A DNA stretch of 36,953 nucleotides from Blautia sp. (GTDB lineage Bacteria; Bacillota; Clostridia; Lachnospirales; Lachnospiraceae): contig JAFVGK010000052.1 of assembly GCA_017475035.1 (NCBI GenBank), forward strand, positions 1-36,953, in the 5' to 3' direction. Under the pieces are notes generated by a model. That model saw only the letters and a list, made by a program, of their open reading frames with translations. It had not been told where the DNA came from and did no database searches. The translations under genes were made by a program, and so were the position numbers. Within the stretch, counting starts at the first letter, position 1. The number at the start of each line of letters is the position of its first letter. This document shows positions 8,533-35,483 of the stretch, piece by piece.

Positions 8533-8633
8533 GGAGACATATTTTGCCCACGGCTGCGCTTTGTGCAGGCGTGGCTGCAAAACAGTCATCCGCGGCCATT
8601 GAGTCAGCGTACAAAACTTTGTTTTGGGAGGAG
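8533..8633 (+). repeat. Dispersed leader element, copy B (101 nt, full type 1)
   Basis: The element starts GGAGACATATTTTGCC and folds into a long hairpin: TTTTGC 8542-8547 with GCAAAA 8577-8582, CACG 8549-8552 with CGTG 8570-8573, CTGC 8554-8557 with GCAG 8565-8568. It continues with CAGTCATC, ATTGAGTCA (8598-8606) and CAAAAC-ttt-GTTTTG (8612-8626). It ends in the ribosome site GGGAGGAG (8626-8633), 8 bases before the ATG at 8642. An ungapped 101-nt copy on the other strand lies at 35383-35483. Confidence 0.8.
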
Positions 8634-8641
8634 AAATAAAT

Positions 8642-9679
8642 ATGGCAGAAAAAATGAAAGCAGTTCAAATCGTTAAGCCGGAGGAGCTCAGAATCATCGA
8701 GATGGATAAGCCGGTCATTGACGGGAAAAATAATGTGCTTGTAAAAATCAAAGCGGCCGGAATCTGCGGCTCCGACGTAGGAATCTATCATGGGACAAAT
8801 GCCGCCGCCACATATCCCCGCGTCATCGGCCATGAAATGGTCGGCGAGGTTGTAGAAGCGGGAGAAACAGCGACGAAGGTAAAGGTCGGCGACCGTGTGA
8901 TCATCGATCAGGTAACAGCCTGCGGCAAATGCTATGCCTGCCGTCACGGACGCCCCAATGTCTGTCAGCATCTCGCTGTACGCGGCGTGCATATCGAAGG
9001 CGGCTACAGGGAATATATGGCTGTTCCGGACACGGACTGCTATCTGCTGCCGGATCAGCTCCGGTATGAGGACGCTGTCCTCATTGAGCCGACTACGATT
9101 GCGATCCAGGCCTGCTCCAGAGCAGAGATTTCCGCTGAAGATGAAGTTCTGATCATGGGTGTCGGCGCACTGGGAACCCGTATGCTGAGCATCGCAAAGC
9201 TTAGCGGCGCAAAGATTATCGTAGCGGACGTCGTGGATGATAAGCTTCAGGAAGCTCTGGACAGCGGCGCAGATTACGCGATCAATCTTCTGAAGGAGAA
9301 TATTGACGAGAAAGTCAAAGAATATACTACGGATGCATACGGGCCGACGTTATCCATCGACTGTGCCTGCACGAAGGATTCCCTTGGAACTCTGATCCGC
9401 GTAACCGGCAACGCCGGACGTGTGATTACGATGGGCTTCTCCGTTGCCCCGACAGAGGTTACACAGTTCGGCATCACCTCCAAGGAATTGGATATCCGCG
9501 GTTCCAGACTGCAGAACCGCAAATTCCAGAAGGCGATTGATCTGATCAACGAAGGAAAACTGGATCTTGATCATAAGATTTCCCATACTTTCCATTTTCT
9601 GGATGCACAGAAGGCCTTTGATTTTAACGATTCCCGCGATCCTTCCATCCGGAAGATCGTTTTGACCTTTGACGATTGA
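8642..9679 (+). CDS. Zinc-dependent alcohol dehydrogenase (sugar-acid type)
   Basis: A 345-residue medium-chain dehydrogenase. Catalytic zinc residues are Cys 42 (AGICGSD) and the HE pair at 64/65 (VIGHEMVGE). The structural zinc loop has cysteines at 94, 97, 100 and 108 (ACGKCYACRHGRPNVC). The Rossmann motif GVGALGTRML and the acidic IIVADVVDD strand end suggest NAD(H). Position before uxuA and uxuB resembles L-galactonate or L-gulonate 5-dehydrogenase (LgoD/YjjN-like), which feeds tagaturonate or fructuronate into this pathway. The exact substrate is inferred from context. ATG 8642 is used because the upstream TTG overlaps the ribosome site. It is probably translated from leader element copy B. 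Confidence 0.88.
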   Translation: MAEKMKAVQIVKPEELRIIEMDKPVIDGKNNVLVKIKAAGICGSDVGIYHGTNAAATYPRVIGHEMVGEVVEAGETATKVKVGDRVIIDQVTACGKCYACRHGRPNVCQHLAVRGVHIEGGYREYMAVPDTDCYLLPDQLRYEDAVLIEPTTIAIQACSRAEISAEDEVLIMGVGALGTRMLSIAKLSGAKIIVADVVDDKLQEALDSGADYAINLLKENIDEKVKEYTTDAYGPTLSIDCACTKDSLGTLIRVTGNAGRVITMGFSVAPTEVTQFGITSKELDIRGSRLQNRKFQKAIDLINEGKLDLDHKISHTFHFLDAQKAFDFNDSRDPSIRKIVLTFDD

Positions 9680-9721
9680 TTTTATGCAAGCATTTAATGT
9701 TTGAGGAATGGAGAAAAAAAT

Positions 9722-10807
9722 ATGGAAATGACAATGCGCTGGTACGGTTCCAGATACGATACCGTCACCCTTCAGCAGATCCGCCAGGTTCCGGGAGTCA
9801 CAGGCGTGATTTCCACCTTATATGATACGACCCCCGGTGAAGTATGGACCAGAGAAGCGATTCACGCATTGAAGGAAGAAGTCGAAGCCGCCGGTCTGCG
9901 GTTATCCGGAATCGAAAGTGTCAACGTCTGTGATTCGATTAAGGTCGGTGATGCGGACAGAGACAAATATATCGCGAACTACATCGAGACACTGGCGAAC
10001 CTGGGAAAAGAAGACATTCACCTGGTATGCTACAACTTCATGCCGGTTTTTGACTGGACCCGCACAGAATTAGCCCGTGTACGCGCGGACGGTTCCACAG
10101 TTCTGGCTTATAACCAGAAGGCGATCGACGCGATCGACGCAAACGATCTTGCCGCTTCCATGGACAAGATGTCCAACGGTACGGTACTGCCCGGCTGGGA
10201 ACCCGAGCGTATGGCAAAGGTACAGGAGCTTTTTGAGATGTACAAGGATGTGGACGGCGAGAAGCTGTTCCAGAATCTGGTGTATTTCCTGAAAGCGATC
10301 ATGCCGGTCTGCAACGAATATGACATCAAGATGGCCATCCATCCGGATGACCCTGCCTGGAGCGTATTCGGCCTGACCCGCATCATCAATTCGGAAAAGA
10401 ACATTCTCCGGCTGATGGAGGCGGTAGATGATGTCCATAACGGCGTAACCTTCTGCTCCGGCTCCTATGGAACCAATCTGGAAAATGATCTTCCGCATAT
10501 GATCCGCGTGCTGAAGGGAAGGATTCATTTTGCCCATGTCCGGAATCTGCATTTCAATGATACGTCCAGAGAGAACTACGATTTTGAGGAAGCATGCCAT
10601 ATTTCCAAAGACGGGAATTTCGATATGTACGAGATCGTAAAGGCCTTGTATGAGACAGGCTTCGACGGACCGATCCGTCCGGATCACGGACGCATGATCT
10701 GGGGAGAAAAAGCGATGCCCGGCTATGGACTGTATGACCGCGCCTTAGGGGCAACATATATCCAGGGTCTTTGGGAAGCCATCGAAAAGAATGCGCAGAG
10801 AGGCTGA
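9722..10807 (+). CDS. uxuA: Mannonate dehydratase
   Basis: A 361-residue TIM-barrel enzyme that dehydrates D-mannonate to 2-keto-3-deoxy-D-gluconate in the cytoplasm. The N-terminus MRWYGSRYDTVTLQQIRQVPGV is typical of UxuA. Metal ligands are visible in the expected order: His near 207 (AIHPDDPAW), Cys near 245 (TFCSGSYG), His near 272 (HFAHVRN) and Asp near 321 (RPDHGRMIWGE). ATG 9722 follows GAGGAATGGAG and lies 42 bp after the dehydrogenase. Length is normal for the shorter Firmicute enzymes. Confidence 0.96.
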   Translation: MEMTMRWYGSRYDTVTLQQIRQVPGVTGVISTLYDTTPGEVWTREAIHALKEEVEAAGLRLSGIESVNVCDSIKVGDADRDKYIANYIETLANLGKEDIHLVCYNFMPVFDWTRTELARVRADGSTVLAYNQKAIDAIDANDLAASMDKMSNGTVLPGWEPERMAKVQELFEMYKDVDGEKLFQNLVYFLKAIMPVCNEYDIKMAIHPDDPAWSVFGLTRIINSEKNILRLMEAVDDVHNGVTFCSGSYGTNLENDLPHMIRVLKGRIHFAHVRNLHFNDTSRENYDFEEACHISKDGNFDMYEIVKALYETGFDGPIRPDHGRMIWGEKAMPGYGLYDRALGATYIQGLWEAIEKNAQRG

Positions 10808-10849
10808 TCCAGGGAGCTGCCTGAACAATATCAATCTGCATTGCTCTTT

Positions 10850-10866
10850 CGGGACATAAGGTCCCG
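10850..10866 (+). promoter_or_regulatory. Small hairpin just before the uxuB ribosome site
   Basis: CGGGAC (10850-10855) pairs with GTCCCG (10861-10866) around ATAAG. It ends five bases before CGGAGG. It may tune mRNA processing or translation between uxuA and uxuB. Confidence 0.35.
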
Positions 10867-10884
10867 TCATCGGAGGAAAATATC

Positions 10885-12516
10885 ATGAAACTTTCATTAG
10901 AAGGATTGAAACAGGCTGATGCCTGGAAAGCAGCCGGAGTGAAGCTTCCTGCTTATGATATCTGCCAGGTTGCGGAAAACACGCGCAAAGCCCCTGTGTG
11001 GGTACATTTCGGGATCGGAAACATCTTTCGTATTTTTATCGGCGGGCTGGCCGACAGGCTGATCGAAGAAAAGGAAACCGACAAAGGAATTATCTGCGTG
11101 GAATCTTTTGACTTCGATGTTGTAGACAAAATCTATGATGCTTATGACAACCTTGTCCTCGGCGTTACTTTGAAAGCGGACGGTTCTACGGATAAGCAGG
11201 TGATCGGATCTCTGGCAGAGGCTATCAAAGCCCAGACCGGCATCGAAGCCACCTGGAAACGGCTGCGCGAGATCTTTACCGATCCCGGTCTGCAGATGGT
11301 TTCCTTCACGATCACCGAGAAGGGTTATGCCCTGAAGGGATCGGACGGCAGCTTCTTCCCCTTTGTGCAGGCGGATATCGATGCAGGTCCGGGCAGCGAG
11401 GAATGCGCTCCTGCATATAATTCCGCAATGTCCGTCGTGGCAGCGCTTTTGTATGAGCGCTATAAAACAGGCAAATATCCGATGGCTGTCGTATCCATGG
11501 ATAACTGTTCCCATAACGGCGAAAAGCTGATGAGCTCCGTCGTCGGAATGGCGAAGGCATGGGCGGATAAAGGCCTGGTTCCGGCGGAATTCTGCGCATG
11601 GCTTCAGGATGAATCCCAGATTGCCTTCCCCTGGTCTATGATCGACAAGATTACCCCGCGTCCGGCGGAATCCGTACAGGCTGAGCTGGAAAAGCTCGGT
11701 ATCGAGAACATGGCTCCCGTGATCACATCCAAGCGTACTTATATCGCGCCATTTGTCAATGCGGAAGGCCCCCAGTACCTGGTCATCGAGGATAAATTCC
11801 CCAACGGACGTCCTGCGCTGGAAAAAGCCGGCGTCTATATGACCGACAGGGATACTGTCAATAAGGTAGAGCGCATGAAGGTAACAACCTGCCTGAATCC
11901 GCTTCACACTGGATTGGCAGTATACGGCTGCCTGCTGGGTTATACCCTCATCGCGGATGAGATGAAGGATCCTCAGCTCAAGGAGCTGGTACACCGGATC
12001 GGACCGGTCGAGGGCATGCCGGTTGTGACTGACCCCGGTATTCTTTCCCCGGAGGCTTTCGTGGACGAGGTCATCAATATCCGTATTCCGAATCCCTTCA
12101 TGCCTGACACGCCGCAGCGTATCGCTACGGATACCTCCCAGAAGGTCGGCATCCGTTACGGCGAAACGATCAAATCCTACGTGGAGAAATACGGCGATGC
12201 GAAGAAGCTCGAAGCGATCCCGCTGGCGCTTGCAGGCTGGCTGAGATATCTGCTCGGTGTGGATGATGAGGGCAAGGTCTTTGAACGTTCCTCCGATCCT
12301 ATGCTGGATGAGCTGACGGCAGCCCTTGACGGCCTGAAGCTTGGCGATACCACAGCCGATATCCACGGCAAGCTTGCTCCGATCCTGAGTAATGCCAACA
12401 TCTTCGGCAGCAATCTGTACGAAGCGGGCCTCGGCGAGAAAATCGAAGAGCTCTTCCGCGAAGAGCTGGCCGGCCCGGGCGCGGTAAGAGCAACCCTGGT
12501 GAAATATTTAGGATAA
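10885..12516 (+). CDS. uxuB: Mannitol dehydrogenase-family protein, probable fructuronate reductase
   Basis: A 543-residue NAD-dependent enzyme of the polyol-specific long-chain dehydrogenase family. The N-terminal Rossmann segment has VHFGIGNIFRIFIG. The central SMDNCSHNGEKL carries the conserved Asn/His region. TSKRTYIAPFVNAEGPQYLVIED and KVTTCLNPLHTGLAVYGCLLGY mark the second domain with the catalytic lysine region. With UxuA next to it, the reaction is most likely D-fructuronate to D-mannonate. The ribosome site CGGAGG is well spaced. The gene ends with a strong terminator at 12572. Mannitol or tagaturonate specificity cannot be excluded from sequence alone. Confidence 0.9.
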   Translation: MKLSLEGLKQADAWKAAGVKLPAYDICQVAENTRKAPVWVHFGIGNIFRIFIGGLADRLIEEKETDKGIICVESFDFDVVDKIYDAYDNLVLGVTLKADGSTDKQVIGSLAEAIKAQTGIEATWKRLREIFTDPGLQMVSFTITEKGYALKGSDGSFFPFVQADIDAGPGSEECAPAYNSAMSVVAALLYERYKTGKYPMAVVSMDNCSHNGEKLMSSVVGMAKAWADKGLVPAEFCAWLQDESQIAFPWSMIDKITPRPAESVQAELEKLGIENMAPVITSKRTYIAPFVNAEGPQYLVIEDKFPNGRPALEKAGVYMTDRDTVNKVERMKVTTCLNPLHTGLAVYGCLLGYTLIADEMKDPQLKELVHRIGPVEGMPVVTDPGILSPEAFVDEVINIRIPNPFMPDTPQRIATDTSQKVGIRYGETIKSYVEKYGDAKKLEAIPLALAGWLRYLLGVDDEGKVFERSSDPMLDELTAALDGLKLGDTTADIHGKLAPILSNANIFGSNLYEAGLGEKIEELFREELAGPGAVRATLVKYLG

Positions 12517-12571
12517 TTCCATTCCCGGCGGAATATTCAGGATAACTCCATTCCGTTTACGGATAATCAGA

Positions 12572-12619
12572 AAAAGCGGCTCAGCTGTCAGGTGATTCCC
12601 CGGCAGCTGAGCCGCTTTT
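12572..12619. terminator. Bidirectional terminator between uxuB and the GH3 gene
   Basis: AAAAGCGGCTCAGCTG (12572-12587) and CAGCTGAGCCGCTTTT (12604-12619) form a perfect 16-bp stem with a 16-nt loop. A and T runs on the two sides let it serve the converging uxuB and beta-glucosidase transcripts. Upstream, AGGATAA-TCCATTCC occurs twice about 29 bp apart (near 12510 and 12539). Confidence 0.9.
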
Positions 12620-12661
12620 CACATTCCGGAAACAATCGGGAGCCTTACAGAAAACCTCCCG

Positions 12662-14947
12662 TCACAATTTCTTCAGCATCTCAGCCAGCTCATCATACCC
12701 CAATTTGCCGCCCGAGAAGCTGACCATTCCGCGCAGGGGCAGATAACGCAGCATGGCGTTCCCCATCTCGTCTGATACAGCCTCCTCCTGCATGTCCGTT
12801 TTCTTCTCTTCCCCTTTCTCTTTTCCGGAACCGAACAATCCTCCCATGACTTCCTCGATCATCGGCTGTATTACCTTCAGTACCTCCGGCCGCTCTTCCA
12901 GATCCATAAAGATCGTGTTCACCGTCACCGGCTCGGCAGGAAGGGCTTTGGTGCCCTCCATTTTTATGCTCCGGCCAAGGACAATATCCCTGCTGCTCTT
13001 TCCGATCTCGATGTCATAGACGCCGTCTTCCACATACCAGTCATGAAGGCTTTCATTCCAATAGGCAAAGGCCCGGGAATCCAGCGTAAAGGATACCTGT
13101 TTTGTTTCTCCCGGCTGAAGGAAGATTTTTTCGATGCCGCGCAGCTCCCGGACAGGCCGGAACACCCGTGAATCTTTCGGATTCTTCACATAAAGCTGAA
13201 CCACTTCCTTACCGGCGCATGCTCCGGTATTCGTGACCTCCACCGATATCCTGACCGTATCCGTATCCTTTGCGCACTCCGGCTCCACCTTCAGGTTTTC
13301 ATAGGCAAAGGTGGTGTAACTCAGCCCATATCCAAAGGGAAACAGTACGTCCATCTTCTTTTTATCATAATATCGATAGCCGACAAAAATCCCCTCTGTA
13401 TAAACCGCTTTATTCCCCTCACCGCCATAAGACAGATACGAAGGATTGTGTTCCAGCTTCAGCGGAAAGCTCTCCGGAAGCCTGCCGCTTGGAGCGACAT
13501 CGCCCCACAGGACGTCCTTTGTTGCGCTTCCTGCAGCCTGACCGCCCAGGTAAGCTTCAATCAGGCCCTTCACATCCCCGATCCAGGGCATCTCGACCGG
13601 GGAACCGTTGTACAGCACCACCACGGTATCGGGATTTACCTTCGCCACACGCCGGATCAGCACCTCCTGGCAGCGGGGAATCCGCATATGGCTGCGGTCA
13701 TACCCTTCGCTCTCAAAGCTGTCCGGAAGACCTGCCACAATCACCGCCTTATCTGCTTTTCCGGCGGCTTCCTCGGCAAGGGAGATCAATTCCTCATCCG
13801 GTTCCTCTCCCTGGATATCATACCCCTGTGCATACAGAACATTCGGATTGTCCTTCAGCGCATCCATCAGGCTGTCCACCCGGAAGCTGTTGATATGGGA
13901 GCTTCCTCCTCCCTGATAGCGCGGGGCAGCGGCGAACCTGCCGATCACTGCCACCTTCTCCTCCTGCTTCAGCGGAAGGATCTGATCCTCATTCTTCAAA
14001 AGCACCATACATTCTCCGGCCAGCTTCCTGGCCAGGACATGCTGCGCTTCCATATCCCACGGAGTATCCGGTTTTCTGTTTGCCAGATACCTGTCTATAA
14101 TCCGCAGGATACGGCGGACGCTTTCATCCACTGCTTCCTCTGAGAGTTCGCCCTTCTTCACCGCTTCCACAATCCGGCGGTCGTTGCTTCCTCCGCTTCC
14201 GGGCATTTCCAGGTCCAGTCCTGCCGCCACGCCTTTTACCCGATCGCTGACCGCGCCCCAGTCACTGACGACAAAGCCTTCAAAGCCCCACTCCCTGCGG
14301 AGCACCTCTGTCAGAAGCCACTCGTTCTGAGAAGCAAATTCCCCGTTTACCTTATTGTAGGAACACATGACCGTCCAGGGCTGCGTTTTTTTCACCGCTG
14401 TCTCAAAGGCAGGAAGATAAATCTCCCGCAGCGTGCGTTCATCCATAATGCTGTCCGAAGACATACGACGGTGCTCCTGTGAATTCGCCGCAAAATGCTT
14501 GATGCTTGTGCCGATATTCCGGCTCTGGACGCCTTCGATCAGAGACGCAGCCAATTCTCCCGTAAGGTACGGGTCTTCACTGAAATATTCGAAATTCCTT
14601 CCGCATAGCGGGGAACGCTTGATATTCACCGCCGGACCTAAAATCACACTCAGGTTCTCGTGCTGGCAGGCGTCTCCCACGCTTTCCCCGATCTGACGCA
14701 GCACCTCACGGTCAAAGCTGGCCGCGCTGGCGCAGGCTGCCGGGAAGCATACCGCCTTAATGCTGTCGTTGATCCCCAGGTGATCTCCCTCCGTGTCCTG
14801 TTTCCGCAGACCGTGAGGTCCGTCGCTGACCATCACCTGTGGAATCCCCAGCCTCTCCACTCCTTTCGTATTCCAGAAATCCGCTCCGGAAAGCAGAGAC
14901 GCCTTTTCCTCCAGTGTCATTTCCGCTATCAGTCTTTCAATCTCCAT
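12662..14947 (-). CDS. GH3 family beta-glucosidase
   Basis: A 761-residue enzyme that releases sugars from beta-glucosides by a retaining mechanism. The GH3 N-terminal barrel shows KHFAANSQEHRR (from His 151), the catalytic nucleophile Asp 229 (GFVVSDWGAV) and LDLEMPG. The second GH3 domain (about 300-520) has GGGSSHIN and PLKLEHNPSYLSY. A C-terminal Fn3-like domain contains EVTNTGACAGKEVVQLYV. An extra charged tail of about 85 residues follows. There is no signal peptide, so it is cytoplasmic and would act on imported oligosaccharides. It lies last after the five ABC-transporter genes, separated by 145 bp with leader element copy E. Confidence 0.93.
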   Translation of the reverse strand: MEIERLIAEMTLEEKASLLSGADFWNTKGVERLGIPQVMVSDGPHGLRKQDTEGDHLGINDSIKAVCFPAACASAASFDREVLRQIGESVGDACQHENLSVILGPAVNIKRSPLCGRNFEYFSEDPYLTGELAASLIEGVQSRNIGTSIKHFAANSQEHRRMSSDSIMDERTLREIYLPAFETAVKKTQPWTVMCSYNKVNGEFASQNEWLLTEVLRREWGFEGFVVSDWGAVSDRVKGVAAGLDLEMPGSGGSNDRRIVEAVKKGELSEEAVDESVRRILRIIDRYLANRKPDTPWDMEAQHVLARKLAGECMVLLKNEDQILPLKQEEKVAVIGRFAAAPRYQGGGSSHINSFRVDSLMDALKDNPNVLYAQGYDIQGEEPDEELISLAEEAAGKADKAVIVAGLPDSFESEGYDRSHMRIPRCQEVLIRRVAKVNPDTVVVLYNGSPVEMPWIGDVKGLIEAYLGGQAAGSATKDVLWGDVAPSGRLPESFPLKLEHNPSYLSYGGEGNKAVYTEGIFVGYRYYDKKKMDVLFPFGYGLSYTTFAYENLKVEPECAKDTDTVRISVEVTNTGACAGKEVVQLYVKNPKDSRVFRPVRELRGIEKIFLQPGETKQVSFTLDSRAFAYWNESLHDWYVEDGVYDIEIGKSSRDIVLGRSIKMEGTKALPAEPVTVNTIFMDLEERPEVLKVIQPMIEEVMGGLFGSGKEKGEEKKTDMQEEAVSDEMGNAMLRYLPLRGMVSFSGGKLGYDELAEMLKKL

Positions 14948-14951
14948 TCTG

Positions 14952-15040
14952 TTCCTCCATAAACGAAGTTTTATACGGTGACTCCATGTTTTCCGATGAA
15001 AATGTGCCGTTTCGGCAGTCGGGCTGCCGAAGACAGAATC
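14952..15040 (-). repeat. Dispersed leader element, copy E (type 2 hairpin)
   Basis: Read on the minus strand: TTCTGTC, then TTCGGCAG (15031-15024) paired perfectly with CTGCCGAA (15018-15011) around a 5-nt loop, then a GGAGTCACCG motif. Next comes TAAAACTTCGTTTA, and the ribosome site GGAGGAA (14958-14952) before ATG 14947. Copy F at 19252-19334 shares the order and the 8-bp hairpin, with one G-C pair replaced by A-T. Confidence 0.65.
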
Positions 15041-15092
15041 ATCCTTCTTGCCTTACCTAATATTCGGTAATGAAGCAGAGGATACTTCGCTC

Positions 15093-15956
15093 TCAGACCG
15101 TGGAGAGGTCCCACACCTCATGGATTTTCGGGACATCGCTGATCAGGCGTTTCGTATACTCAGCCTTGGGCGTCAGGATGACCTCATCCGCAAGACCATG
15201 CTCCACAAATCTCCCATGCTCCATGATATAAACCGTATCTGAAATGTAATAAGCCAGACCGATATCATGGGTAATAAAAATGACTGTCATGCCGATCTCA
15301 TCCCTGAGATTCAGCAGCATATCCAGGATCGTCGCCCTGGAACAGGCGTCAATCATGGAGGTAGGCTCGTCCGCCAGCAGGATCTTTGGTTTTAACAGGA
15401 AAATCCTGGCAATCATCAGACGCTGCATCTGCCCGCCGGATAATTCAAACGGGTATTTGTTCGTTAATTCCGCAAATTTCAGGTTGACGAAGCTGCAGGC
15501 TTCCGTCATCAGCCTGACTTTCTCTTCCTTAGGCAGCTTTTTTCCGCCTGTCATATTGATGCAGTCCAAAAGCACCGTATCGATCTTGTTAAACACATTG
15601 AAGGAAGAAAAGGGATCCTGAAAAATTGCCTGGATGTTTTTCCAGTATTCCTTTTTCTTCGCCCGGGTAGAGATATCTCTCTTCTCCCCGCGGAAAAAGA
15701 TTTCCCCTTCTGTCGGCTCCAGAAGCCCCAGCAGCATCTTGGAAAGCGTCGTCTTGCCGCTTCCGCTTTCCCCAACGATACTCACCAGTTCCCCTTCCCG
15801 GAATTCAAAATCCACATGATCCACTGCCACATTCTGCTTCTTCCCCGTACCGAATATACGGGTAATTCCCTTTCCGCTCAGGCACATGGGATTCTGGGAC
15901 ACATCATGGCGGCGTTCGAGGCTGACTGTCGTATTTTTACTCTCTTCAGTCTTCAC
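15093..15956 (-). CDS. ABC transporter ATPase (DppF/OppF type)
   Basis: A 287-residue ATP-binding subunit of an oligopeptide/oligosaccharide importer. Motifs seen are Walker [11 protein letters not shown]-loop FQDPFSSFN, signature LSGGQMQR, Walker [11 protein letters not shown]-loop SMID and switch ITHD. It powers transport together with the neighbouring ATPase at 15946. The start is GTG 15956, with GGAGG nine bases upstream, and overlaps the upstream ATPase gene by 11 bp. It lacks the long C-terminal cysteine domain of its partner, normal for a truncated OppF type. Confidence 0.92.
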
Positions 15957-16956: not shown

Positions 16957-16968
16957 GGCGTCTCCTCC

Positions 16969-18219: not shown

Positions 18220-18233
18220 TTTTCTCCCTCCTC

Positions 18234-19238: not shown

Positions 19239-19251
19239 ATCCACCCCCTCC

Positions 19252-19358
19252 TTCTTATAACTAAGTCTTGTACGTTAACCAAAGTTTTCGTATGACGATT
19301 TTGCTGTTTCGACAGTTGAACTGTCGAAGACAGAATTCGTCTCCTCCCATAACGAAGT
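19252..19358 (-). repeat. Dispersed leader element, copy F (type 2) with an extra SD-like start
   Basis: On the minus strand: a partial element (CTTCGTTATGGGAGGAG, 19358-19342), then ATTCTGTC and TTCGACAG (19328-19321) paired with CTGTCGAA (19315-19308). These are followed by GCAAAATCGTCATACG, GTTAACGTACAAGACTTAGTT and the AAGGAGG of the DppB gene. The 8-bp hairpin differs from copy E by a compensatory G-C to A-T change. GGGAGGAG appears twice if the upstream partial copy is counted, as also happens in copy C. Confidence 0.6.
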
Positions 19359-22666: not shown

Positions 22667-22676
22667 AAAAAGAAAG

Positions 22677-25494: not shown

Positions 25495-25552
25495 CGGCTG
25501 CTTTTCTCCGTCATCGCAGAATACAGTCTTTTCGCAGCAGCATTTATCAAAG

Positions 25553-25582
25553 AAAAAACCCGCGTTTTAAGCGGGTTTTCTT
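25553..25582. terminator. Second, bidirectional terminator before the YdcF-family gene
   Basis: AAAACCCGC (25555-25563) pairs with GCGGGTTTT (25571-25579) and is flanked by A and T runs. It fits as the terminator of the minus-strand gene ending at 25622 and as a backstop for the hydrolase transcript. Confidence 0.8.
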
Positions 25583-25621
25583 AATCCATAAAACAGACTG
25601 TCCAAATACCCTCAAAACAGG

Positions 25622-29012: not shown

Positions 29013-29039
29013 CCAACCACCATTCGAAAGGAGACACAT

Positions 29040-29564
29040 ATGGATCTGATTCCCAGTTTTACCGTTGACCACACCAGGATCGTCCCGGGGATCTATACCA
29101 GCAGGGTAGACACCCTTGGCGATCAGAAAGTTACCACCTATGACGTGAGAGTCACAAAACCCAACGTAGAGCCTGCCATTGACGTGGCGGCAATGCACTC
29201 CCTGGAGCACCTCATCGCCACATATCTCAGAAATGACCCCGAATGGAAAGACCAGGTCATCTACTGGGGACCCATGGGATGCCTGACGGGATTTTACCTG
29301 ATCCTGAAGGGAAACCGCGCGCCGGAGGAGATCTATGATCTGCTTCTCAATGCCTTTCGGTCCGTTGAAGCCGCAGAAGAGGTTCCCGGTACTTCACCTG
29401 TAAACTGCGGTACCTACCTCATGCACAACCTTTTGATGGCTAAGTGGCATGCCCGGAAATTCGCTGATTATCTGGCTGAAAACGCAGGCAGGCCTGAAAT
29501 CTTTACGTATCCCGGCTCCGAAAGGCTTGTAACCGGAGATGGCCGCACGTTCTTTGATTCTTAA
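29040..29564 (+). CDS. luxS: S-ribosylhomocysteine lyase
   Basis: A 174-residue metalloenzyme that splits S-ribosylhomocysteine into homocysteine and the autoinducer-2 precursor DPD. Metal ligands His 53 and His 57 (HSLEH) and Cys 123 (NCGTY) are present, with the general base Glu 56 and the catalytic Cys 81 (GPMGCLTGFY). Length is normal to slightly long. It starts 27 bp after the PreA-like gene with GAAAGGAG upstream, so the two form an operon. The usual partner genes of the methyl cycle (pfs, metK) are not in the window. Confidence 0.96.
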   Translation: MDLIPSFTVDHTRIVPGIYTSRVDTLGDQKVTTYDVRVTKPNVEPAIDVAAMHSLEHLIATYLRNDPEWKDQVIYWGPMGCLTGFYLILKGNRAPEEIYDLLLNAFRSVEAAEEVPGTSPVNCGTYLMHNLLMAKWHARKFADYLAENAGRPEIFTYPGSERLVTGDGRTFFDS

Positions 29565-29616
29565 GGAAATGCCTGCATCGACAAAAGCCTGACCCTGCGT
29601 CACTCGGAATCCGATC

Positions 29617-29730
29617 ATTTTGCAGAGAGAAATATTGCATATTTTGCATAGAGAAATTTTCCACAGAATAATTTTGCATAGAGTAATTTTGGATAGAGTA
29701 ATTTTGCATAGAGTAATTTTGCAAAAAGAA
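29617..29730. repeat. 15-bp tandem repeat between luxS and the HipA-like gene
   Basis: Seven full units with consensus ATTTTGCATAGAGTA (29617-29631 and 29641-29730 in frame) plus one 9-base fragment (29632-29640). Three units are nearly identical (29671-29715). The repeat ends eight bases before the minus-strand stop codon of the HipA-like gene. No classical terminator hairpin is seen between these converging genes. Confidence 0.85.
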
Positions 29731-29738
29731 TCTTCTTC

Positions 29739-30845
29739 TCACAGGCTTTGCAGCTCATGGAGCCGTAAAAAAAACATATCCCGGGTAGATTCATCTTTGA
29801 ACCAGGCTGCCTCCACAGGGGCGGTCTGATTCAGGCCGATCTGTCTGACCGCCTCCCGGGCAGCTTCCTGCTGCGTCATGCTTCGCCCGAAGGCATTCCT
29901 TTCGGGAAGGCATGGCGCGCCTTCCGGAGAATCATACGCTTCAAACGTATGGTTAAAATCCATCAGATCATACAGACGAAGAGGACGGTTGCTGCTGTTG
30001 TCAATCAGGAATCCCCAGTTTGCCCAATGCCGGTCGGTATTGCCGGTAAGGTAGTCGAGAATGTTCATCATATAATAGCTGTATCCGTCCAGCTCCAGCA
30101 GATAACTGCCTGCGTCGATGTCGTGATTTAGCGCATAGATTGAAAAAGCTTCCCAGGTCACAAGGCTGCGTTCCGGAGAAGTGATGAGCCGGCTTTCCGT
30201 TACGGGCTGACCGTCATATATCCTTTGTCTGTAGATGACCTGACGGACGCGAAAGCACTGGCAGATCCGGCTTGCAAGCAGCTCGTTCTCTACTGCCTGC
30301 AGGCTTCCGTCCTTGTAGAGGCGGAATCCTTCATCATCACGGATCCACGCCTTCGGAAAAAGACCGGAGGTACTTAAGTCATCCGCGATCAGATGGCTGT
30401 TGCGGATGGTCATCTGCTTTCCACGCAGACAAACGTCTGCAAAAATTGTTTCCAGGTGATTTTCAAATAGGTTAAGATTCTTAAAAAGCACACTCTCCGA
30501 AGATGTCCGGACCCAGAAAATGTCTGTCAGCGAAAGACAATGATAGGAAAGCGCAATCCCGGCACGATCGCGGTCTGTCAGAGCCTGCGGCTGTCCGATA
30601 CTGTTAAGAATTTCCTTGGCGTATTTACGATCCAGGGTGAGAACCCTGGATGCGCACCAATGATAAAAATTATCCAGATTCTGGATCTGAAGATCGATAT
30701 CATTATGATCTGTTTCTTCCAGATAAAGGTCATAGGGAAGCCGTTCTTCATCATAAATACTGCAGAATCCGGCCGGCGAAATCTCTGCTGCCGGCCGTTC
30801 GCCATGCATAATCACATATTTGTCTGTTAAATGTACCCTGCTCAT
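29739..30845 (-). CDS. HipA-like kinase-fold protein (solitary)
   Basis: A 368-residue protein whose C-terminal half has HipA-type kinase features: a possible ATP-binding lysine in GLFPKAWIRDDEGFRLYKDG, the catalytic loop GNTDRHWANWGFL, and the metal-binding aspartate region RPLRLYDLMDFNHTFEAYD. The N-terminal half (about 1-150) is less conserved. No HipB-type antitoxin or other partner lies next to it, so it is not an evident toxin-antitoxin pair. Such orphan HipA-like proteins are common in Clostridia and lack a set function. ATG 30845 follows leader element copy D, with GGGAGGAG ten bases upstream. A longer in-frame extension would run through that element and is rejected. Confidence 0.78.
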   Translation of the reverse strand: MSRVHLTDKYVIMHGERPAAEISPAGFCSIYDEERLPYDLYLEETDHNDIDLQIQNLDNFYHWCASRVLTLDRKYAKEILNSIGQPQALTDRDRAGIALSYHCLSLTDIFWVRTSSESVLFKNLNLFENHLETIFADVCLRGKQMTIRNSHLIADDLSTSGLFPKAWIRDDEGFRLYKDGSLQAVENELLASRICQCFRVRQVIYRQRIYDGQPVTESRLITSPERSLVTWEAFSIYALNHDIDAGSYLLELDGYSYYMMNILDYLTGNTDRHWANWGFLIDNSSNRPLRLYDLMDFNHTFEAYDSPEGAPCLPERNAFGRSMTQQEAAREAVRQIGLNQTAPVEAAWFKDESTRDMFFLRLHELQSL

Positions 30846-31163
30846 TCGAATGAAACTCCTCCCAAAACGAAGCTTTGTACGTTGTTCCAATAAATTACCG
30901 AAAATGATCCGATTTGTCAATTCAGGGAGCCAAAAATGAACCGATTCTTTTTTACAGGCTTGAGGCGGCGCATCAGTAATAATGCCCCGAAAACACATGG
31001 GAGGATGCTCTTGACGTACCACGGAACGAATAGTATGGTCTTTTCATCGTAAGTTCTGAAATACTGAATATCTTTATTGTCAGAAATTCCGGCTGCAAAG
31101 TATGCCTCTTTCGCAGTGCTAAATTCGACACTGCAAACGACCCAAAACGAAAGGAGCAAAAAA
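30846..31163. other. 318-bp divergent region between the HipA-like and GH2 genes
   Basis: It contains leader copy D at 30856-30890, then roughly 220 bp without a clear signal. A minus-strand frame of about 80 codons (31159-30917) with one possible membrane stretch has no ribosome site. GCAGTG (31113-31118) and CACTGC (31129-31134) form a short inverted repeat just upstream of the GH2 site AAAGGAG (31150-31156) and may be an operator. Confidence 0.5.
30856..30890 (-). repeat. Dispersed leader element, copy D
   Basis: On the minus strand: ATTGGAACAACGTAC, then CAAAGCTTCGTTTTG (30877-30863), then GGGAGGAG (30863-30856) and ATG 30845. One A-to-G change breaks one pair of the short stem compared with the other copies. 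No large upstream hairpin is seen here. Confidence 0.6.
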
Positions 31164-32936
31164 ATGGGAGATTCTCTTAAGACCAGATGGGGAAAAACAA
31201 TAGATCCGGAGCATGTTCTCGAAGAATATCCGAGACCTGGAATGAAAAGAAACAGCTACATCTGCCTGAACGGTTTCTGGGATTATGCCATCACAAAATC
31301 GAAGGAATTTCCGGAGGAATATGAAGGCAGGATTCTGGTCCCGTTTTCTCCGGAAGCTTCGCTTTCCGGCGTAAACAAAATCCTTCGTCCCGATCAGTTT
31401 CTTCATTACAGAAGAACGTTTACTGTAGACAGCATGGAGAGCGGGCACCGGCTGATTCTCCATTTCGGGGCGGTAGACCACAGCTGTGAAGTGTACCTCA
31501 ACGGGTGTAAGATCGGAGAACATTCCGGCGGTTACTGGCATTTTTCTTTTGACATTACCGCCTTTGTGCAGACAGGAGACAACCTGCTGCAACTGGTTGT
31601 CCGGGATGTAACGGACAAATCCTACCATTCACGGGGAAAGCAGTCTCTCGAGCGTGGCGGCATGTGGTATACGCCGCAGAGCGGAATCTGGCAGACTGTC
31701 TGGATGGAATTTGTGCCGGACCGGTACATCACAGAGCTGATACTGAATCCGGATTCGGACATGGAATGCCTCCAGATCCAGGTGATGATGAACGGACGCG
31801 AGCGGATGCCTGTAAATATAACAGTACGCCTGAAGGACGAAGTGATTCTCGAGGCGGATGGAATGACCGGCGACACCTGCAGGCTGCAGCTTCCGTCATG
31901 TAAGCTCTGGACACCGGAAGAACCGATCCTGTATGACCTTATTGTCAGGACAGACGAGGATGAGGTGATTTCCTACTTTGCAATGAGAAAGATCTCTCTC
32001 GAAAAGGACACAAAGGGGATTTTCAGGATGTTCCTGAACAACAGGCCATATTACCAGAACGGCGTGCTTGATCAGGGATATTATCCTGACGGTTTGTATA
32101 CCGCTCCTTCCGACGAAGCCATGGTAAATGACATCCTTCAGATGAAAGCGCTTGGGTTCAATATGCTTCGGAAGCATGTCAAGATCGAGCCGGATCGATG
32201 GTATTATCACTGTGACCGTCTCGGGATGTTAGTCTGGCAGGATATGATCAACGGCGGGGATTGGTTCAGGGGACGGCTTGAAACGCAAGCGAACCTTCTG
32301 AAACAGTTAGCCGGAAAAACCCCTCGTGACGCAAACCTCAGAACCTTTTTGCGGGATAACGAAAAGGGCCGGAAAGAGTTTATCCGGGAAGTCGGACAGA
32401 CCATACGGCAGCTGTACAACTTTCCGTCCATCGTCCTGTGGGTTCCGTTCAACGAGGGCTGGGGACAGTTTGAGGCTATAAAGACAACGGAGCTGATCAG
32501 AAAAATGGATCCATCCCGGCTGGTGGACCAGGCAAGCGGCTGGTATGACATGGGTGGGGGAGATGTCTCCAGCATTCACAATTATTTCGTGCCGTTGATC
32601 ATCATCCCGCAGCCCACCAGATGTGTCGCCGTATCGGAATTCGGAGGTTATTCCTGGCATATAGTCGATCACAGCTGGACCGAAAATGAATTCGGATACA
32701 GAAAGTATCACTCCAGAGAAGAACTGACAGAAGCGTTCGTGAATCTCTGGAAGAAGGACGTTATCCCGAATATAAAGAACGGGTTAAGCGCCACCGTCTT
32801 TACAGAACTATCCGATGTTGAGGACGAAACAAATGGTCTGCTGACATATGACAGGGAAATCATCAAAATCAATGCCGAAAAGATCATACAGGCCAACAGA
32901 CAGCTCGCTGATGCTTTTGATGCGGCAGTAAAATAA
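31164..32936 (+). CDS. GH2 family glycoside hydrolase
   Basis: A 590-residue cytoplasmic retaining glycosidase. The sugar-binding jelly roll (about 25-195) shows HYRRTF, HFGAVDHSCEVYLNG and GMWYTPQSGIWQTVWME. An Ig-like domain follows (about 200-280). The TIM barrel has the acid/base Glu near 431 (WVPFNEGWGQ) and the nucleophile Glu near 492 (VAVSEFGGYSW). Beta-galactosidase, beta-glucuronidase or a related exo-activity is possible. There is no signal peptide. ATG 31164 follows AAAGGAG. The in-frame extension to 31077 lacks a ribosome site. It shares its upstream region with the HipA-like gene and ends at a strong terminator. Confidence 0.92.
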   Translation: MGDSLKTRWGKTIDPEHVLEEYPRPGMKRNSYICLNGFWDYAITKSKEFPEEYEGRILVPFSPEASLSGVNKILRPDQFLHYRRTFTVDSMESGHRLILHFGAVDHSCEVYLNGCKIGEHSGGYWHFSFDITAFVQTGDNLLQLVVRDVTDKSYHSRGKQSLERGGMWYTPQSGIWQTVWMEFVPDRYITELILNPDSDMECLQIQVMMNGRERMPVNITVRLKDEVILEADGMTGDTCRLQLPSCKLWTPEEPILYDLIVRTDEDEVISYFAMRKISLEKDTKGIFRMFLNNRPYYQNGVLDQGYYPDGLYTAPSDEAMVNDILQMKALGFNMLRKHVKIEPDRWYYHCDRLGMLVWQDMINGGDWFRGRLETQANLLKQLAGKTPRDANLRTFLRDNEKGRKEFIREVGQTIRQLYNFPSIVLWVPFNEGWGQFEAIKTTELIRKMDPSRLVDQASGWYDMGGGDVSSIHNYFVPLIIIPQPTRCVAVSEFGGYSWHIVDHSWTENEFGYRKYHSREELTEAFVNLWKKDVIPNIKNGLSATVFTELSDVEDETNGLLTYDREIIKINAEKIIQANRQLADAFDAAVK

Positions 32937-32940
32937 GCAG

Positions 32941-32980
32941 CGCAGTTTTCTACGTTGATGTAATGCTTTCGGATGACTAT
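32941..32980 (-). repeat. Degenerate leader-element remnant, copy G
   Basis: Read on the minus strand this stretch gives AGTCATCCG, GCATTACATCAACGTAG and AAAACTGCG. It lines up with the AGTCATCCG...ATTGAGTCA-CGTAC-AAAACTTTG part of copy B but lacks the ribosome site. It lies in the convergent gap after the GH2 gene and precedes no gene, which suggests that the element moves or decays independently of genes. Confidence 0.4.
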
Positions 32981-33034
32981 TTATACAGCAGATCCGGATT
33001 CCCTTGTCGTTGAAGGCGGTGCTGTAGAATAAGG

Positions 33035-33092
33035 AAAGAGGCTGTGAAGAAAAGGGATGAATAATCCCGGACTTCACAGCCTTTTTCTTTTT
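33035..33092. terminator. Bidirectional terminator between GH2 and surface-protein genes
   Basis: AGGCTGTGAAG (33039-33049) pairs with CTTCACAGCCT (33072-33082), with an inner GGGAT/ATCCC pair. TTTTTCTTTTT follows on one side and an A-rich run lies on the other. It serves both converging genes. Confidence 0.88.
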
Positions 33093-33133
33093 CCAAGGTA
33101 ATCCTTTTTATTCTATCATAAAAAATAAAATCA

Positions 33134-35332
33134 TTAGTGCTTACGGTAGTACATGGCAAATAATACTGCAGCTGTCAGGACAAGGACTGAGGCACCTGTT
33201 AACAACCAGACAGTTCTGCCAAGTTCATTCAATGCAGTAAATCCATCTTCTGTTCTGTCAGACGAAAAACCCTCTTCACTGCCGAAAGGATCCGGATGAT
33301 CGAAGCCGCTGTTGTCGTTTTTCTGTGGTTGAGTTTCCATCTCACTGTCAGGCGGAGTCGGTCGTTCCGAATCAGATGCTCCCTCCTGAGCAGGAAATGA
33401 TCCACTTTCAATGCTTTCTCCATCTCCCGACTGCCTATCACCCATTCTACCTGGCTGCATACCGCTCATTCCACCCGGCTGCATACCTCCCATTCCATCT
33501 GGCTGCATACCTCCCATCCAGTCTGGCTGCATACCTCCCTGGTTTCCGGAGCTTCCCACTGCCATGGCGATTGATTCCAATGTCAGTTCGACGCTGTTTT
33601 CACCATAAACTACGGTATAAGTCTCACCGACAGTCAGATCAGGTGAACTGAAGGCTATGGAGGAATAGCTGCATGCAGGCGTATATGAGAGGACTTCCTC
33701 ATCGGCACTATTCGTGATCCGGAATAACGTTCCCGCCTGCACGGCAGAATCAAGATTATACAGTACTGCACACTGCGTACTGCCAGAACTGAATTCCTCC
33801 GCCATACCGGAGGCTCCGAAAGCCAGAATCGTACCGCCTGTGACGATACATTCTCCGCCGCTTTCACTGCCGTAGTCGATGGCACAATTATTGTTGTCAC
33901 CGGGCAGACTGATAAGGATCGTTCCACCATCTATATAGATACTCCCGTTGGAATCAAGCCCGTCAGCGTCCCGTCCGGTCTCGTTGATAATCGTCAAAGC
34001 GCCGCCGCTGATCCGGATATATGTCTCTTCCTGATCAGAAGAACTGCCGTCCTCCGTCTGTCCTGTTTTGGACATTTGAGGCATATCACCGGAGGGCATT
34101 GCCGGCATTCCGTCGGACATTGAAGACTTCTCTACGAATCCTGATGCTGCTTCTCCGGTCACCGATGGCTTTTCTCCGAACTCTGATGCTGCTTCTCCGG
34201 TCTCTGATGGCTTTTCTCCAAACTCTGATGTTCCTTCTCCGGTCTCTGATGGCTTTTCTCCAAACTCTGATGTTCCTTCTCCGGTCACTGATGGCTTTTC
34301 TCCAAACTCTGATGTTCCTTCTCCGGTCACCGATGGCTTTTCTCCATCAGAGAAGTCCGGCCAGCCGGATATCCCATTTGCTTCATCGCCGCTGCCAAAG
34401 CCTCCCGGGTTTCCGGGAAAAGCTCCGCCTCCCATGCCGCCTCCGAAGTCCATGGAAGAGTTGCCGCCGTTGGCGTTGAGACCGTCATCGCTGGGGTAAA
34501 TCGTAATGTCGCCTCCGGCGATATCTATGGTAATTGCTTCAAGACCTTCATAGCAGGATGCGATGAGGATCGTACCACTTTCAATATAAAGCTCATCATC
34601 GCTGTGTACGGCATCGTCTCCCGCGTCTATGGTCAATGATGCCTCCGCAAAACGGAAACTGTCATTCACGTGGATACCGTCCTGCGGCGCGGAAATCGTG
34701 ATGTTTCCTCCGGTTATAACAAGAGAATCATTCACGTCGAAGCCATGCTGATACCCCGCCGTGACCGTCAGGCTTCCGCTTCCGTTGACAGTCAGATCGT
34801 CGTGTGAGAAGATCGTCCCGCCGGTATTGTCAGACAGCGCCTCCTCCGAGTAGCTGCTCCCGCTTGTAAACGCATTCTCTGTGCCTTCTGCCAAAGTCAG
34901 GAATACTTTATCAGCCTGATCGATCTGCAGACAGGCATCATCAGAGCAATTGACCGTCACGCCGTTTAAGCGTATCCAGATCTTGGAGGAATCATAGGCA
35001 TCCACTATAATGCTCCCATCCTCCAGTGTGCCCGAGAGCACGTACCATCCGCCGTTTGAGATCACAAGATCACCATCCAGGAAGTACGCGCCGTTACCAT
35101 CGATTTTTCCCTCGGAGCCATCGAGGGTGATATAGGTCGTGTATGCGTTATCAGCCCAGTCTCCGTCCAGGTCATTTGCCGTGAAATACGCACTGCCGCT
35201 GTACGACTCCGCGTCTTCGTCGGCAATGACCGTGATTCCCAGTTTTTCACCGTTCATAAATGCCACGGTCAGGACAAGCGTCAGCACGAGCACGACAATA
35301 CAGATTCTGTCTATATTTCTGTGTGTAGACAC
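33134..35332 (-). CDS. Surface beta-helix carbohydrate-binding protein (Cthe_2159/DUF4353 type) with repeat linker and C-terminal anchor
   Basis: A 732-residue protein. An N-terminal membrane or signal segment (about 6-26) leads to a right-handed beta-helix region (about 45-290 and 435-590), rich in DDALHSDDELYIESG-like turns: GGTIFSHDDLTVNGSG, DGIHVNDSF, DDGLNANGG. Between them lies a linker with about five 14-residue repeats of the form EKPSVTGEGTSEFG. After the helix come four GGMQPDGM-type repeats, an acidic Pro/Gln-rich stretch and a final membrane helix with RKH. The Clostridium thermocellum relative binds acidic polysaccharide. The protein probably spans the wall. GTG 35332 is used; an upstream TTG overlaps the SD. 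It is third in an operon with DUF4956 and VTC genes. Confidence 0.85.
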   Translation of the reverse strand: MSTHRNIDRICIVVLVLTLVLTVAFMNGEKLGITVIADEDAESYSGSAYFTANDLDGDWADNAYTTYITLDGSEGKIDGNGAYFLDGDLVISNGGWYVLSGTLEDGSIIVDAYDSSKIWIRLNGVTVNCSDDACLQIDQADKVFLTLAEGTENAFTSGSSYSEEALSDNTGGTIFSHDDLTVNGSGSLTVTAGYQHGFDVNDSLVITGGNITISAPQDGIHVNDSFRFAEASLTIDAGDDAVHSDDELYIESGTILIASCYEGLEAITIDIAGGDITIYPSDDGLNANGGNSSMDFGGGMGGGAFPGNPGGFGSGDEANGISGWPDFSDGEKPSVTGEGTSEFGEKPSVTGEGTSEFGEKPSETGEGTSEFGEKPSETGEAASEFGEKPSVTGEAASGFVEKSSMSDGMPAMPSGDMPQMSKTGQTEDGSSSDQEETYIRISGGALTIINETGRDADGLDSNGSIYIDGGTILISLPGDNNNCAIDYGSESGGECIVTGGTILAFGASGMAEEFSSGSTQCAVLYNLDSAVQAGTLFRITNSADEEVLSYTPACSYSSIAFSSPDLTVGETYTVVYGENSVELTLESIAMAVGSSGNQGGMQPDWMGGMQPDGMGGMQPGGMSGMQPGRMGDRQSGDGESIESGSFPAQEGASDSERPTPPDSEMETQPQKNDNSGFDHPDPFGSEEGFSSDRTEDGFTALNELGRTVWLLTGASVLVLTAAVLFAMYYRKH
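34152..34346. repeat. 42-bp in-gene tandem repeat (14-residue units)
   Basis: Units begin at 34152, 34194, 34236, 34278 and 34320 (the last partial), each starting TCTCCGGTC. Units 2 and 3 are identical and unit 4 differs by a few bases. A degenerate unit precedes at about 34110-34151. The repeat keeps frame, so copy-number change would only lengthen or shorten the linker of the surface protein. Confidence 0.9.
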
Positions 35333-35340
35333 GTAATCTC

Positions 35341-35483
35341 CTCCTCCCAAAACGAAGTTTTGTATTCAAAGACAAAATCATTCTCCTCTCAAAACGAAGT
35401 TCTGTATGTTGACTCAATGATCACAGATGACTGTTTTGCAGCCACGCCCGCAAAGAACGCAGCCGTGGGCAAAATATGTCTCC
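35341..35483 (-). repeat. Dispersed leader element, copy C (full type 1 plus a second tandem SD unit)
   Basis: The main 101-nt unit (35483-35383) begins one base after the DUF4956 stop codon. It aligns to copy B without gaps, with about 13 differences counted by hand, nearly all transitions. In the big hairpin TTTTGC/GCAAAA and CACG/CGTG are unchanged, while CTGC/GCAG becomes CTGC/GCGG, keeping the pair as U-G. A second CAAAACGAAGTTTTG plus GGAGGAG unit (35362-35341) follows and supplies the site for GTG 35332. The first unit ends in GAGAGGAG before an ATG that opens a short frame of about 44 codons. Confidence 0.8.

Follow-up and report, generated by a model that had tools for sequence, protein, structure and literature searches.

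The window, by which we refer to the whole analysed stretch of 36,953 nucleotides from Blautia sp., harbours complete and partial copies of a repeat on both strands. Profile HMMs of this repeat match all seven places where the first-pass annotation had proposed a structured leader element. The copies and the genes that they serve are listed below, with positions counted from the first letter of the window.

300..335, + strand: 3' third of a copy, serving a FAD oxidoreductase gene (nhmmer model positions 67-102, E 7e-6; Pfam DAO)
8311..8360, + strand: part of an old subfamily-3 copy (nhmmer with the fam3 model, 29.8 bits)
8532..8633, + strand: complete copy of subfamily 1 (nhmmer 111 bits, R1 118 bits)
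14953..15048, - strand: complete copy of subfamily 2, serving a GH3 glucosidase gene (nhmmer 83 bits; Pfam GH3)
19251..19345, - strand: complete copy of subfamily 2, serving an ABC permease gene (nhmmer 78 bits; sequence)
30856..30892, - strand: 3' third of a copy, serving a 368-aa ORF without Pfam match (nhmmer model positions 66-102, E 6e-6)
32939..32991, - strand: remnant of subfamily 2 (nhmmer E 4e-6 in the window)
35341..35365, - strand: 3' fragment consisting of the terminal hairpin and GGGAGGAG, forming the Shine-Dalgarno (SD) sequence of a Cthe_2159-type gene (nhmmer model positions 78-102; sequence)
35383..35484, - strand: complete copy of subfamily 1, upstream of the 3' fragment at 35341..35365 (nhmmer 103 bits, R1 112.5 bits)

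The copy at 8532..8633 supplies the SD of a zinc alcohol dehydrogenase gene with its ATG at 8642 (Pfam ADH_N/ADH_zinc_N). Among the genes that had been named as served, Pfam matches bear out the FAD oxidoreductase, the alcohol dehydrogenase, the glucosidase and the ABC permease and identify the surface protein as a Cthe_2159 carbohydrate-binding protein, whereas for the protein described as HipA-like Pfam yields nothing at E≤0.001. The two closest copies, described as about 87% identical without gaps, share 86% of their nucleotides over 109 nt with no gaps, and the core 24-mer finds four matches at up to three mismatches compared to none in 100 shuffles. In line with the initial remark that no named repeat or riboswitch class fits, a search of the window with Rfam 15 at gathering score gave no match; at E≤0.5, three matches were obtained in five loci, every one of them located away from the element. 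The subfamily-3 copy at 8311..8360, an addition to the places named at first, is interrupted by a separate inverted-repeat element of 167 bp (8351-8517), and its 3' end, judged by eye from the sequence, probably resumes at about 8513-8530. The copy at 19251..19345 is located directly 3' of a sequence at 19341-19358 that looks like the right end of an older one, although this match is weak (4.7 bits).

Architecture and occurrence of the repeat

The repeat unit spans 92-104 nt and consists of GGAG, AC, a long hairpin, GTCATCCG, a small hairpin, an A/T-rich hairpin and a terminal (A)GGAG. The long hairpin at the left end is imperfect, the small hairpin is of a GAC/GTC type and the A/T-rich hairpin stops a few nucleotides short of the right-end (A)GGAG. 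Subfamilies differ in sequence but keep this common architecture, and some copies have lost hairpins. In 9 of 15 representatives the right end forms a stem of 5 bp or more, compared to 25% of shuffles, and all six folded copies show stable folding with z values of –2.1 to –4.1. In the consensus fold of 16 copies from another element-rich genome (G088), which contains 27 pairs, the left GGA of the element pairs with the TCC of a GTCATCC sequence located 3' of the left hairpin. An alternative pairing, seen by eye, joins strand 1 of the long hairpin to the block following GTCAT in several subfamilies, with at least two where it is missing. On inspection, no guide tetranucleotide that would lie 5' of the foot of the hairpin and pair with the cleavage site was recognized, nor were terminal inverted repeats seen between the two ends in the consensuses of subfamilies 1-3.

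Further copies, whose absence from a genome search would have spoken against the first-pass proposal, turned out to be abundant. In a sample of 810,764 bases of the host genome, profile HMMs detected 134 copies after removal of antisense overlaps, which extrapolates to about 840 copies in the entire genome. A covariance model applied to 430,764 bases gave 57 matches at E≤0.01, at least one of which is an antisense overlap of another match, and in a genome-wide model search all of the 150 candidates that were scored, out of 2428, matched. The complete genomic copies found are mostly 84-92% alike to the query copy. Within the genus, subfamilies of differing sequence and like architecture are present in 7 of 63 relatives (8 of 64 genomes including the host), and at least seven further genomes carry them as well; each of eight genomes reached via the structural pattern contains 5 to 132 matches. 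Most element-bearing genomes are incomplete MAGs. The structural core pattern is found in at least 91 stretches of a contig collection, whereas a 23-mer taken from subfamilies 1 and 2 has no exact match in this collection, which may omit the host and its near kin. Viral contigs searched with the structural pattern gave no match. A search of phages and plasmids with a single subfamily-1 copy gave no match. Our literature search, which left most subscription papers outside its reach and thus does not prove absence, found no description of such an element.

Insertion at Shine-Dalgarno sites and inside genes

The placement of the element was analysed for 121 copies in the sample with an intact 3' end, applying one SD rule alike to elements and control sites. 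In 82 of these copies, a start codon (of ORFs of at least 60 aa) is located 3-16 nt beyond the end, whereas 17 copies abut a downstream copy. The fraction serving as SD (82 of 104 non-stacked copies) strongly exceeds that of AGGAG sites outside elements (447 of 1928; Fisher p 5e-31) and of intergenic AGGAG sites (116 of 276; Fisher p 1e-10). If restricted to called genes, which are defined as greedy ORFs and not by a gene finder, the respective numbers are 71 of 104 compared to 340 of 1928 (p 8e-28) and 91 of 276 (p 8e-10). Altogether, the element is found at the start of 70 distinct called genes out of 645 in the sample, or about one in nine. Among the high-scoring copies of subfamily 3, only two of five act as SD.

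A target is defined by the junctions between tandem copies. In 14 of 19 such junctions, a single GGAG is common to both copies and the left end follows directly after it, and in 13 of the 19 the joined copies belong to different subfamilies, which together indicate that the element enters at the position right after GGAG and in a single orientation. Of the remaining junctions, three are without GGAG and two contain an altered GGAG.

Copies were also found inside proteins. Subfamily 2 lengthens a gene by 93 nt and can be read through in a single sense frame (ETDFVFGSP..KSSSEDIESTY..FWEE) as well as in a single antisense frame. In the host sample it is present in frame within proteins, with seven copies in five genes that all use one frame; its open frames indicate that it is also tolerated inside genes. 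In a second genome (G062), where the matching flanks are mostly about 65-84% alike to the host, the orthologue of a UvrD-like protein shows a gap of exactly 31 aa at the insert. The orthologue of a CobB-like protein has 18 codons at a place where the host gene contains 130, three copies included. Another copy resides antisense within a gene of 421 aa, whose homologue in G062 has a 39-residue gap, and this orientation implies insertion into DNA instead of mRNA.

These data demonstrate how many copies there are, which target and orientation they use, that they stack and insert in frame, that orthologues lack them and that subfamilies have a common structure. The initial proposal of a mobile REP-like element donating a ribosome site is well supported by the hundreds of copies, the tandems sharing GGAG, the in-frame inserts and their lack in orthologues. 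To that proposal we add the exact target motif GGAG, the division into subfamilies, the copies inside proteins and the genome-wide scale. We consider it very probable that the repeat is a mobile palindromic element of the non-autonomous kind, comparable to the Rickettsia palindromic elements (RPE), with the SD core as target. Such an element would enter DNA at the position directly following GGAG and in a single orientation, leaving a fresh copy with GGAG on either side. At an SD, insertion would shift the old site about 100 nt upstream and the right-end GGAGGAG of the element would become the new SD. Since the gene would remain expressible, insertions at SDs would be tolerated and could stack, with the SD of the old copy providing the entry site for a new one. 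The element thus appears to survive at ribosome-binding sites because it brings a replacement, and its excess at SDs would reflect this tolerance and possibly a preference for the SD context.

With somewhat lower confidence, we favour the full scenario of a hairpin-guided element with the SD core as cognate target, which uses the translation start as safe harbour, carries its own replacement ribosome site, stacks repeatedly, has in this way replaced the ribosome-binding site in roughly every ninth gene of a species and in one subfamily doubles as in-frame protein insert. If true, a selfish element would provide the translation start site for about one called gene in nine (70 out of 645 in the sample) and would also have extended helicases and an enzyme of cobalamin type by additional segments.

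Mode of spread and alternative explanations

The element may move via single-stranded DNA, recognized by a hairpin-binding transposase of the HUH type acting in trans, a route that we put forward tentatively, with reverse transcription (see below) or some other enzyme as alternatives. Neither an autonomous relative nor a dedicated transposase was found. Matches to Y1_Tnp are present in 6 of 10 carriers, with the host containing a contig-edge fragment only, and a Y1 transposase was rejected as partner as it is absent from the other four; it also occurs among relatives that lack the element (18 of 37 genomes). RVT_1 matches, found in 7 of 10 carriers, equally do not track the element, in a set where most genomes are incomplete MAGs. 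A copy was found near only one of 22 transposase or reverse transcriptase loci, a RAYT-like gene (L296), which could be explained by copy density alone. Among the eight left-end-only copies in the sample, none is convincingly paired with a corresponding right end that would enclose a gene; in one case a right end is located 5.4 kb further on but belongs to another subfamily, and the two such loci that were read are decayed copies, so that they were discarded as candidates for an autonomous version with the same ends.

Alternatively, the repeat could be a retroelement resembling a SINE, where a reverse transcriptase copies the element RNA, whose 3' GGAG would act as primer on a CTCC in the target strand. 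Such a mechanism would account for the prevalence of left-truncated over right-truncated copies (32 compared to 8) and is compatible with the changed pairs of the long hairpin in young subfamily 1, where G-U exceeds A-C (38 to 20, p 0.025); this excess would be expected if the top strand folds, which fits either RNA or single-stranded DNA of the top strand. Left truncation was nevertheless dismissed as a sign of reverse transcription, as it is explained equally well by internal hairpin deletion, which at least one short copy resembles by eye, and by selection, which would keep only the right end. Moreover, RVT_1 is missing from three of ten carriers, all of them MAGs, and the reverse transcriptases of the host, judged from motifs on reading, are presumably of group II intron and DGR types. 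We thus regard a retroelement as unlikely.

The other possibility raised initially, a host regulatory RNA, would consist of a shared structured 5' leader, similar to a riboswitch or thermosensor, through which the translation of a regulon is controlled and which selection has dispersed and maintained. The location of most copies in a leader just before a start codon, their stable folds (six of six) and the second pairing option of strand 1, noted by eye for several subfamilies and missing in at least two, speak for such an RNA. Covariation gives a divided answer. In the young subfamily (23 of 26 listed copies, with three omitted, and 16 others from loci) it does not exceed that of shuffles (127 and 146 of 500), whereas in the old subfamily 2 (37 of 43 listed copies, with six of odd length or hairpin omitted) pairing and covariation are slightly above shuffles (reached in 3 and 0 of 500, respectively), which leans towards a control RNA and could reflect some constraint or just sub-subfamilies. 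However, G-U and A-C changes are equal in the old subfamily (51 to 54), the served genes are unrelated and without obvious common feature, copies reside in protein frames and antisense, some have lost hairpins, orthologues lack the element and Rfam provides no match at gathering score. Together these observations make a regulatory RNA very improbable.

The single GGAG found at most tandem junctions would also fit a conventional MITE with terminal inverted repeats, mobilized by a DDE transposase and with AGGAG as 5-bp target duplication, but the ends of subfamilies 1-3 show no such repeats on inspection and the orientation is fixed relative to GGAG, and we consider this explanation very improbable. 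Finally, a chance or convergent likeness around ordinary SD sequences, conceivable as GGAGG near ATG is universal, can be dismissed in light of a similarity that extends over about 100 nt, mostly at 84-92%, and of core 24-mer matches reached in none of 100 shuffles, which rules out the restriction to the SD that had been considered at the outset.

Comparison with known repeat families

The mobile element that we propose behaves most like RPE, a family with a counterpart in Wolbachia. As described in two studies, RPE are repeated, hairpin-forming sequences of 105-146 bp that comprise several families and are found in frame within unrelated protein genes and also between genes (PMC2229807, PMC10969869). 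The Blautia element is likewise short and hairpin-forming, falls into several families and occurs both between genes and in frame inside otherwise conserved protein genes. The likeness is one of behaviour only, and RPE belong to another phylum. A table in PMC2229807 ascribes 12-bp terminal inverted repeats to RPE, whereas none were seen in the Blautia element, which, unlike RPE, has a defined GGAG target, is mostly found at SD sites, takes over their function and stacks there. The same study treats the movement of such repeats as an open question (PMC2229807), and a defined GGAG target together with high-copy subfamilies in several species now makes the movement of palindromic elements testable.

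Elements of the IS200/IS605 and REP/RAYT type have a fixed orientation and no terminal inverted repeats. As outlined in PMC6006769, they also carry hairpins in subterminal position, and their left end is flanked by a short target motif of fixed sequence. The Blautia element similarly inserts 3' of a fixed motif in one orientation and carries hairpins near both ends, but it is a unit of about 100 nt with three hairpins, no recognized guide tetranucleotide and no consistent Y1 partner. The pneumococcal repeats BOX, RUP and SPRITE, as described in PMC3049150, are near species-specific, structured and apparently parasitic and insert into one another, as does the small structured repeat described here. 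They are over-represented between convergent genes, and these and similar repeats are tolerated chiefly in intergenic regions away from gene starts, whereas the Blautia element is located at gene starts and occupies the ribosome-binding site, one of the positions at which a gene is most sensitive.

Copies of the element in the window and in the host genome

Profile HMMs made from the repeat matched nine stretches of the window and confirmed the coordinates assigned to the copies in the first-pass annotation.

Matches of the profile HMMs in the window
300-335, + strand, 3' fragment
8311-8360, + strand, old subfamily-3 copy, split by an unrelated 167-bp inverted-repeat element
8532-8633, + strand, complete copy
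14953-15048, - strand, complete copy
19251-19345, - strand, complete copy
30856-30892, - strand, 3' fragment
32939-32991, - strand, remnant
35341-35365, - strand, 3' fragment
35383-35484, - strand, complete copy

The closest pair of these copies matches at 86% across 109 nt, and a core 24-mer has four matches in the window compared with none in 100 shuffles. Of the six genes served by the element, five contain Pfam domains in line with the names in the first-pass annotation, whereas the 'HipA-like' protein has no Pfam match at E≤0.001. The 167-bp element (8351-8517), which sits within the old subfamily-3 copy, is bounded by inverted ends of 37 nt and contains a second hairpin further in; four more copies are found in the host genome (96-99%) and four in the relative G073 (81-85%). 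The window also contains tandem 15-nt repeats of the ATTTTGCATAGAGTA type between two ORFs (29641-29743), and its Cthe_2159-type gene has internal repeats of 24 and 21 nt (33426-33545 and 34114-34346).

The host assembly comprises 5.08 Mb in 200 contigs, one of which is the entire window. A BLAST search of this assembly with one copy gave at least 49 matches including itself (40 of 182 candidates scored), and a covariance model made from 28 copies (R1) matched all 150 scored candidates out of 2428. In a sample of 39 stretches and the window, covering 810,764 bases from eight contigs, HMMs of three subfamilies identified 134 copies, with 40, 81 and 13 falling to subfamilies 1, 2 and 3, respectively; of the 134, 89 are complete, 32 5'-short, 8 3'-short and 5 short at both ends. 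R1 gave 57 hits in 430,764 bases, at least one being an antisense overlap. Extrapolation to the whole genome yields about 840 copies from the HMM sample and about 670 from the covariance model.

Placement at Shine-Dalgarno sites and within genes

The right end is intact in 121 copies, 82 of which end 3-16 nt ahead of the start codon for an ORF with 60 or more residues; 17 adjoin another copy and 22 are located elsewhere, some within genes. Of the 82, 71 lead into a called gene, together 70 distinct genes among the 645 called. With stacked copies left out and the same rule applied to elements and control AGGAG sites, this placement was found for 82/104 copies, compared with 447/1928 AGGAG sites outside elements (p 5e-31) and 116/276 intergenic ones (p 1e-10). 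Restricted to called genes, the respective values are 71/104, 340/1928 (p 8e-28) and 91/276 (p 8e-10). Among high-scoring, presumably young copies, an excess of this placement is seen in subfamily 1 (14/18) and is not clear in subfamily 3 (2/5). At 14 of 19 tandem junctions, one GGAG is common to both copies and directly followed by left-end sequence; two show GGAG with altered neighbours and three no GGAG. The downstream copy scores higher at 15 junctions, and 13 join different subfamilies and therefore reflect separate insertions rather than simple duplications.

Downstream flanks of 42 copies matched the relative G062, many of these matches being to the element itself. Six Shine-Dalgarno sites from this set were read against G062: five of the orthologues are devoid of the element, and the sixth has a subfamily-2-like copy, shortened, at the same gene, so that at least one insertion may predate the split. 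In G073, the alcohol dehydrogenase is preceded by a plain Shine-Dalgarno sequence.

Five genes contain subfamily-2 copies in their interior, seven in total, which all share one sense frame reading ETDxVFGSP..KSSSEDIEST..WEE with variations. By Pfam, these genes encode two helicases, one UvrD-like and one that we call AddA-like, a CobB/CbiA-type enzyme with a tandem array of three copies, a DUF2264 protein and an ABC permease. In 800,000 bases sampled from G062, the UvrD-like orthologue lacks exactly 31 residues, as one clean gap, where the element lies, and the CobB-like orthologue has 18 codons in place of 130 residues with three copies in the host. For the AddA-like orthologue, the alignment at this place is broken by scattered gaps; the permease has a distant match only, which stops short of the element, and the DUF2264 protein found no hit in this sample. 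One copy is antisense and lies, in its open antisense frame, within a 421-aa gene that has no Pfam match and whose G062 homologue (27% identical) shows a 39-residue gap at this position; GGAG in the coding strand is thus not needed for insertion. The remaining antisense overlaps listed could represent spurious ORFs. For 99 pattern copies from other genomes, 16 stop-to-stop ORFs cross a copy; the expected frame accounts for 8 of these and each of the two others for 4. The three longest of the 8 (1105, 539 and 443 codons) all come from the carrier genome G088, and the shorter ones may be due to chance.

Architecture and possible constraint

Subfamily 1 is organized as GGAG-ACATATTTTG-hairpin-CAAAATAGTCATCCG-block-GAGTCA-GTACAAAACTTCGTTTTGGGAGGAG. 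Subfamily 2 carries ACTGATTTTG and a different long hairpin, with a right end almost as in subfamily 1, while the right-end hairpin of subfamily 3 differs from both. Right-end hairpins vary in sequence with the hairpin kept: when 110 distinct copies were reduced to 15 representatives sharing less than 80% similarity, 9 of these had a stem of 5 bp or more that ends near the final GGAG, compared with 25% of shuffles, and 6 lacked it. The consensus fold of 16 G088 copies, in which the left GGAGAC pairs with GTCATCC, contains 27 pairs, 4 of them changed on both sides. In one subfamily-1 copy (L233 12071-12171, +), the stretch past the long hairpin includes sequence complementary to the left arm of that hairpin, as seen in an alignment, and this copy looks like a recombinant.

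Changed pairs of the long hairpin are G-U in 38 and A-C in 20 cases among 27 subfamily-1 copies (p 0.025), compared with 51 and 54 among 43 subfamily-2 copies. Covariation in subfamily 1 is not above shuffles. In subfamily 2, paired cells amount to 85.3% vs 84.3% in shuffles (reached by 3/500) and covariation to 0.156 vs 0.136 (reached by 0/500), a small excess that relatedness may explain. From these results, we take the structure to be required for spreading, with copies drifting afterwards, although there may be some constraint.

Distribution and relation to known elements

A broader covariance model of 36 sequences (R2), applied at E≤1e-6 with strict filters, found matches in 8 of 64 genus genomes including the host, with 32 in G073, 14 in G062, 13 in G086, 7 in G085, 5 in G032, 2 in G002 and 1 in G018. 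The structural core pattern was found in at least 91 stretches, and the pattern-bearing MAGs listed are titled Clostridia, Clostridiales, Lachnospiraceae or Blautia, several originating from goat, sheep or cattle gut. Eight genomes picked from these hits gave at least 132, 105, 31, 26, 21, 13, 8 and 5 matches (up to 150 candidates scored in each); since that with 13, G094, shares identical match positions with G086, seven of the eight are new. Viral contigs did not match the core pattern, nor did phages and plasmids match the subfamily-1 copy used as query. In G088, the stretch L296 contains a Y1 transposase gene (805-1548, -), which we take to be RAYT-like; iterated coding repeats of the SSLRKF type lie upstream of the gene, and a copy of the element is located at 1699-1794.

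No partner enzyme was found, with Y1_Tnp detected in 6/10 and reverse transcriptase in 7/10 carriers. Our literature search revealed no described element targeting Shine-Dalgarno sites. The present element has a fixed short motif by its left end and a hairpin near each end, as is characteristic of ssDNA (HUH) transposition described for IS200/IS605 and REP elements (PMC6006769). By behaviour, its nearest analogues are the Rickettsia palindromic elements (PMC2229807, PMC10969869), although these are tabulated with terminal inverted repeats. Pneumococcal repeats, as described in PMC3049150, favour convergent intergenic regions, unlike the present element.
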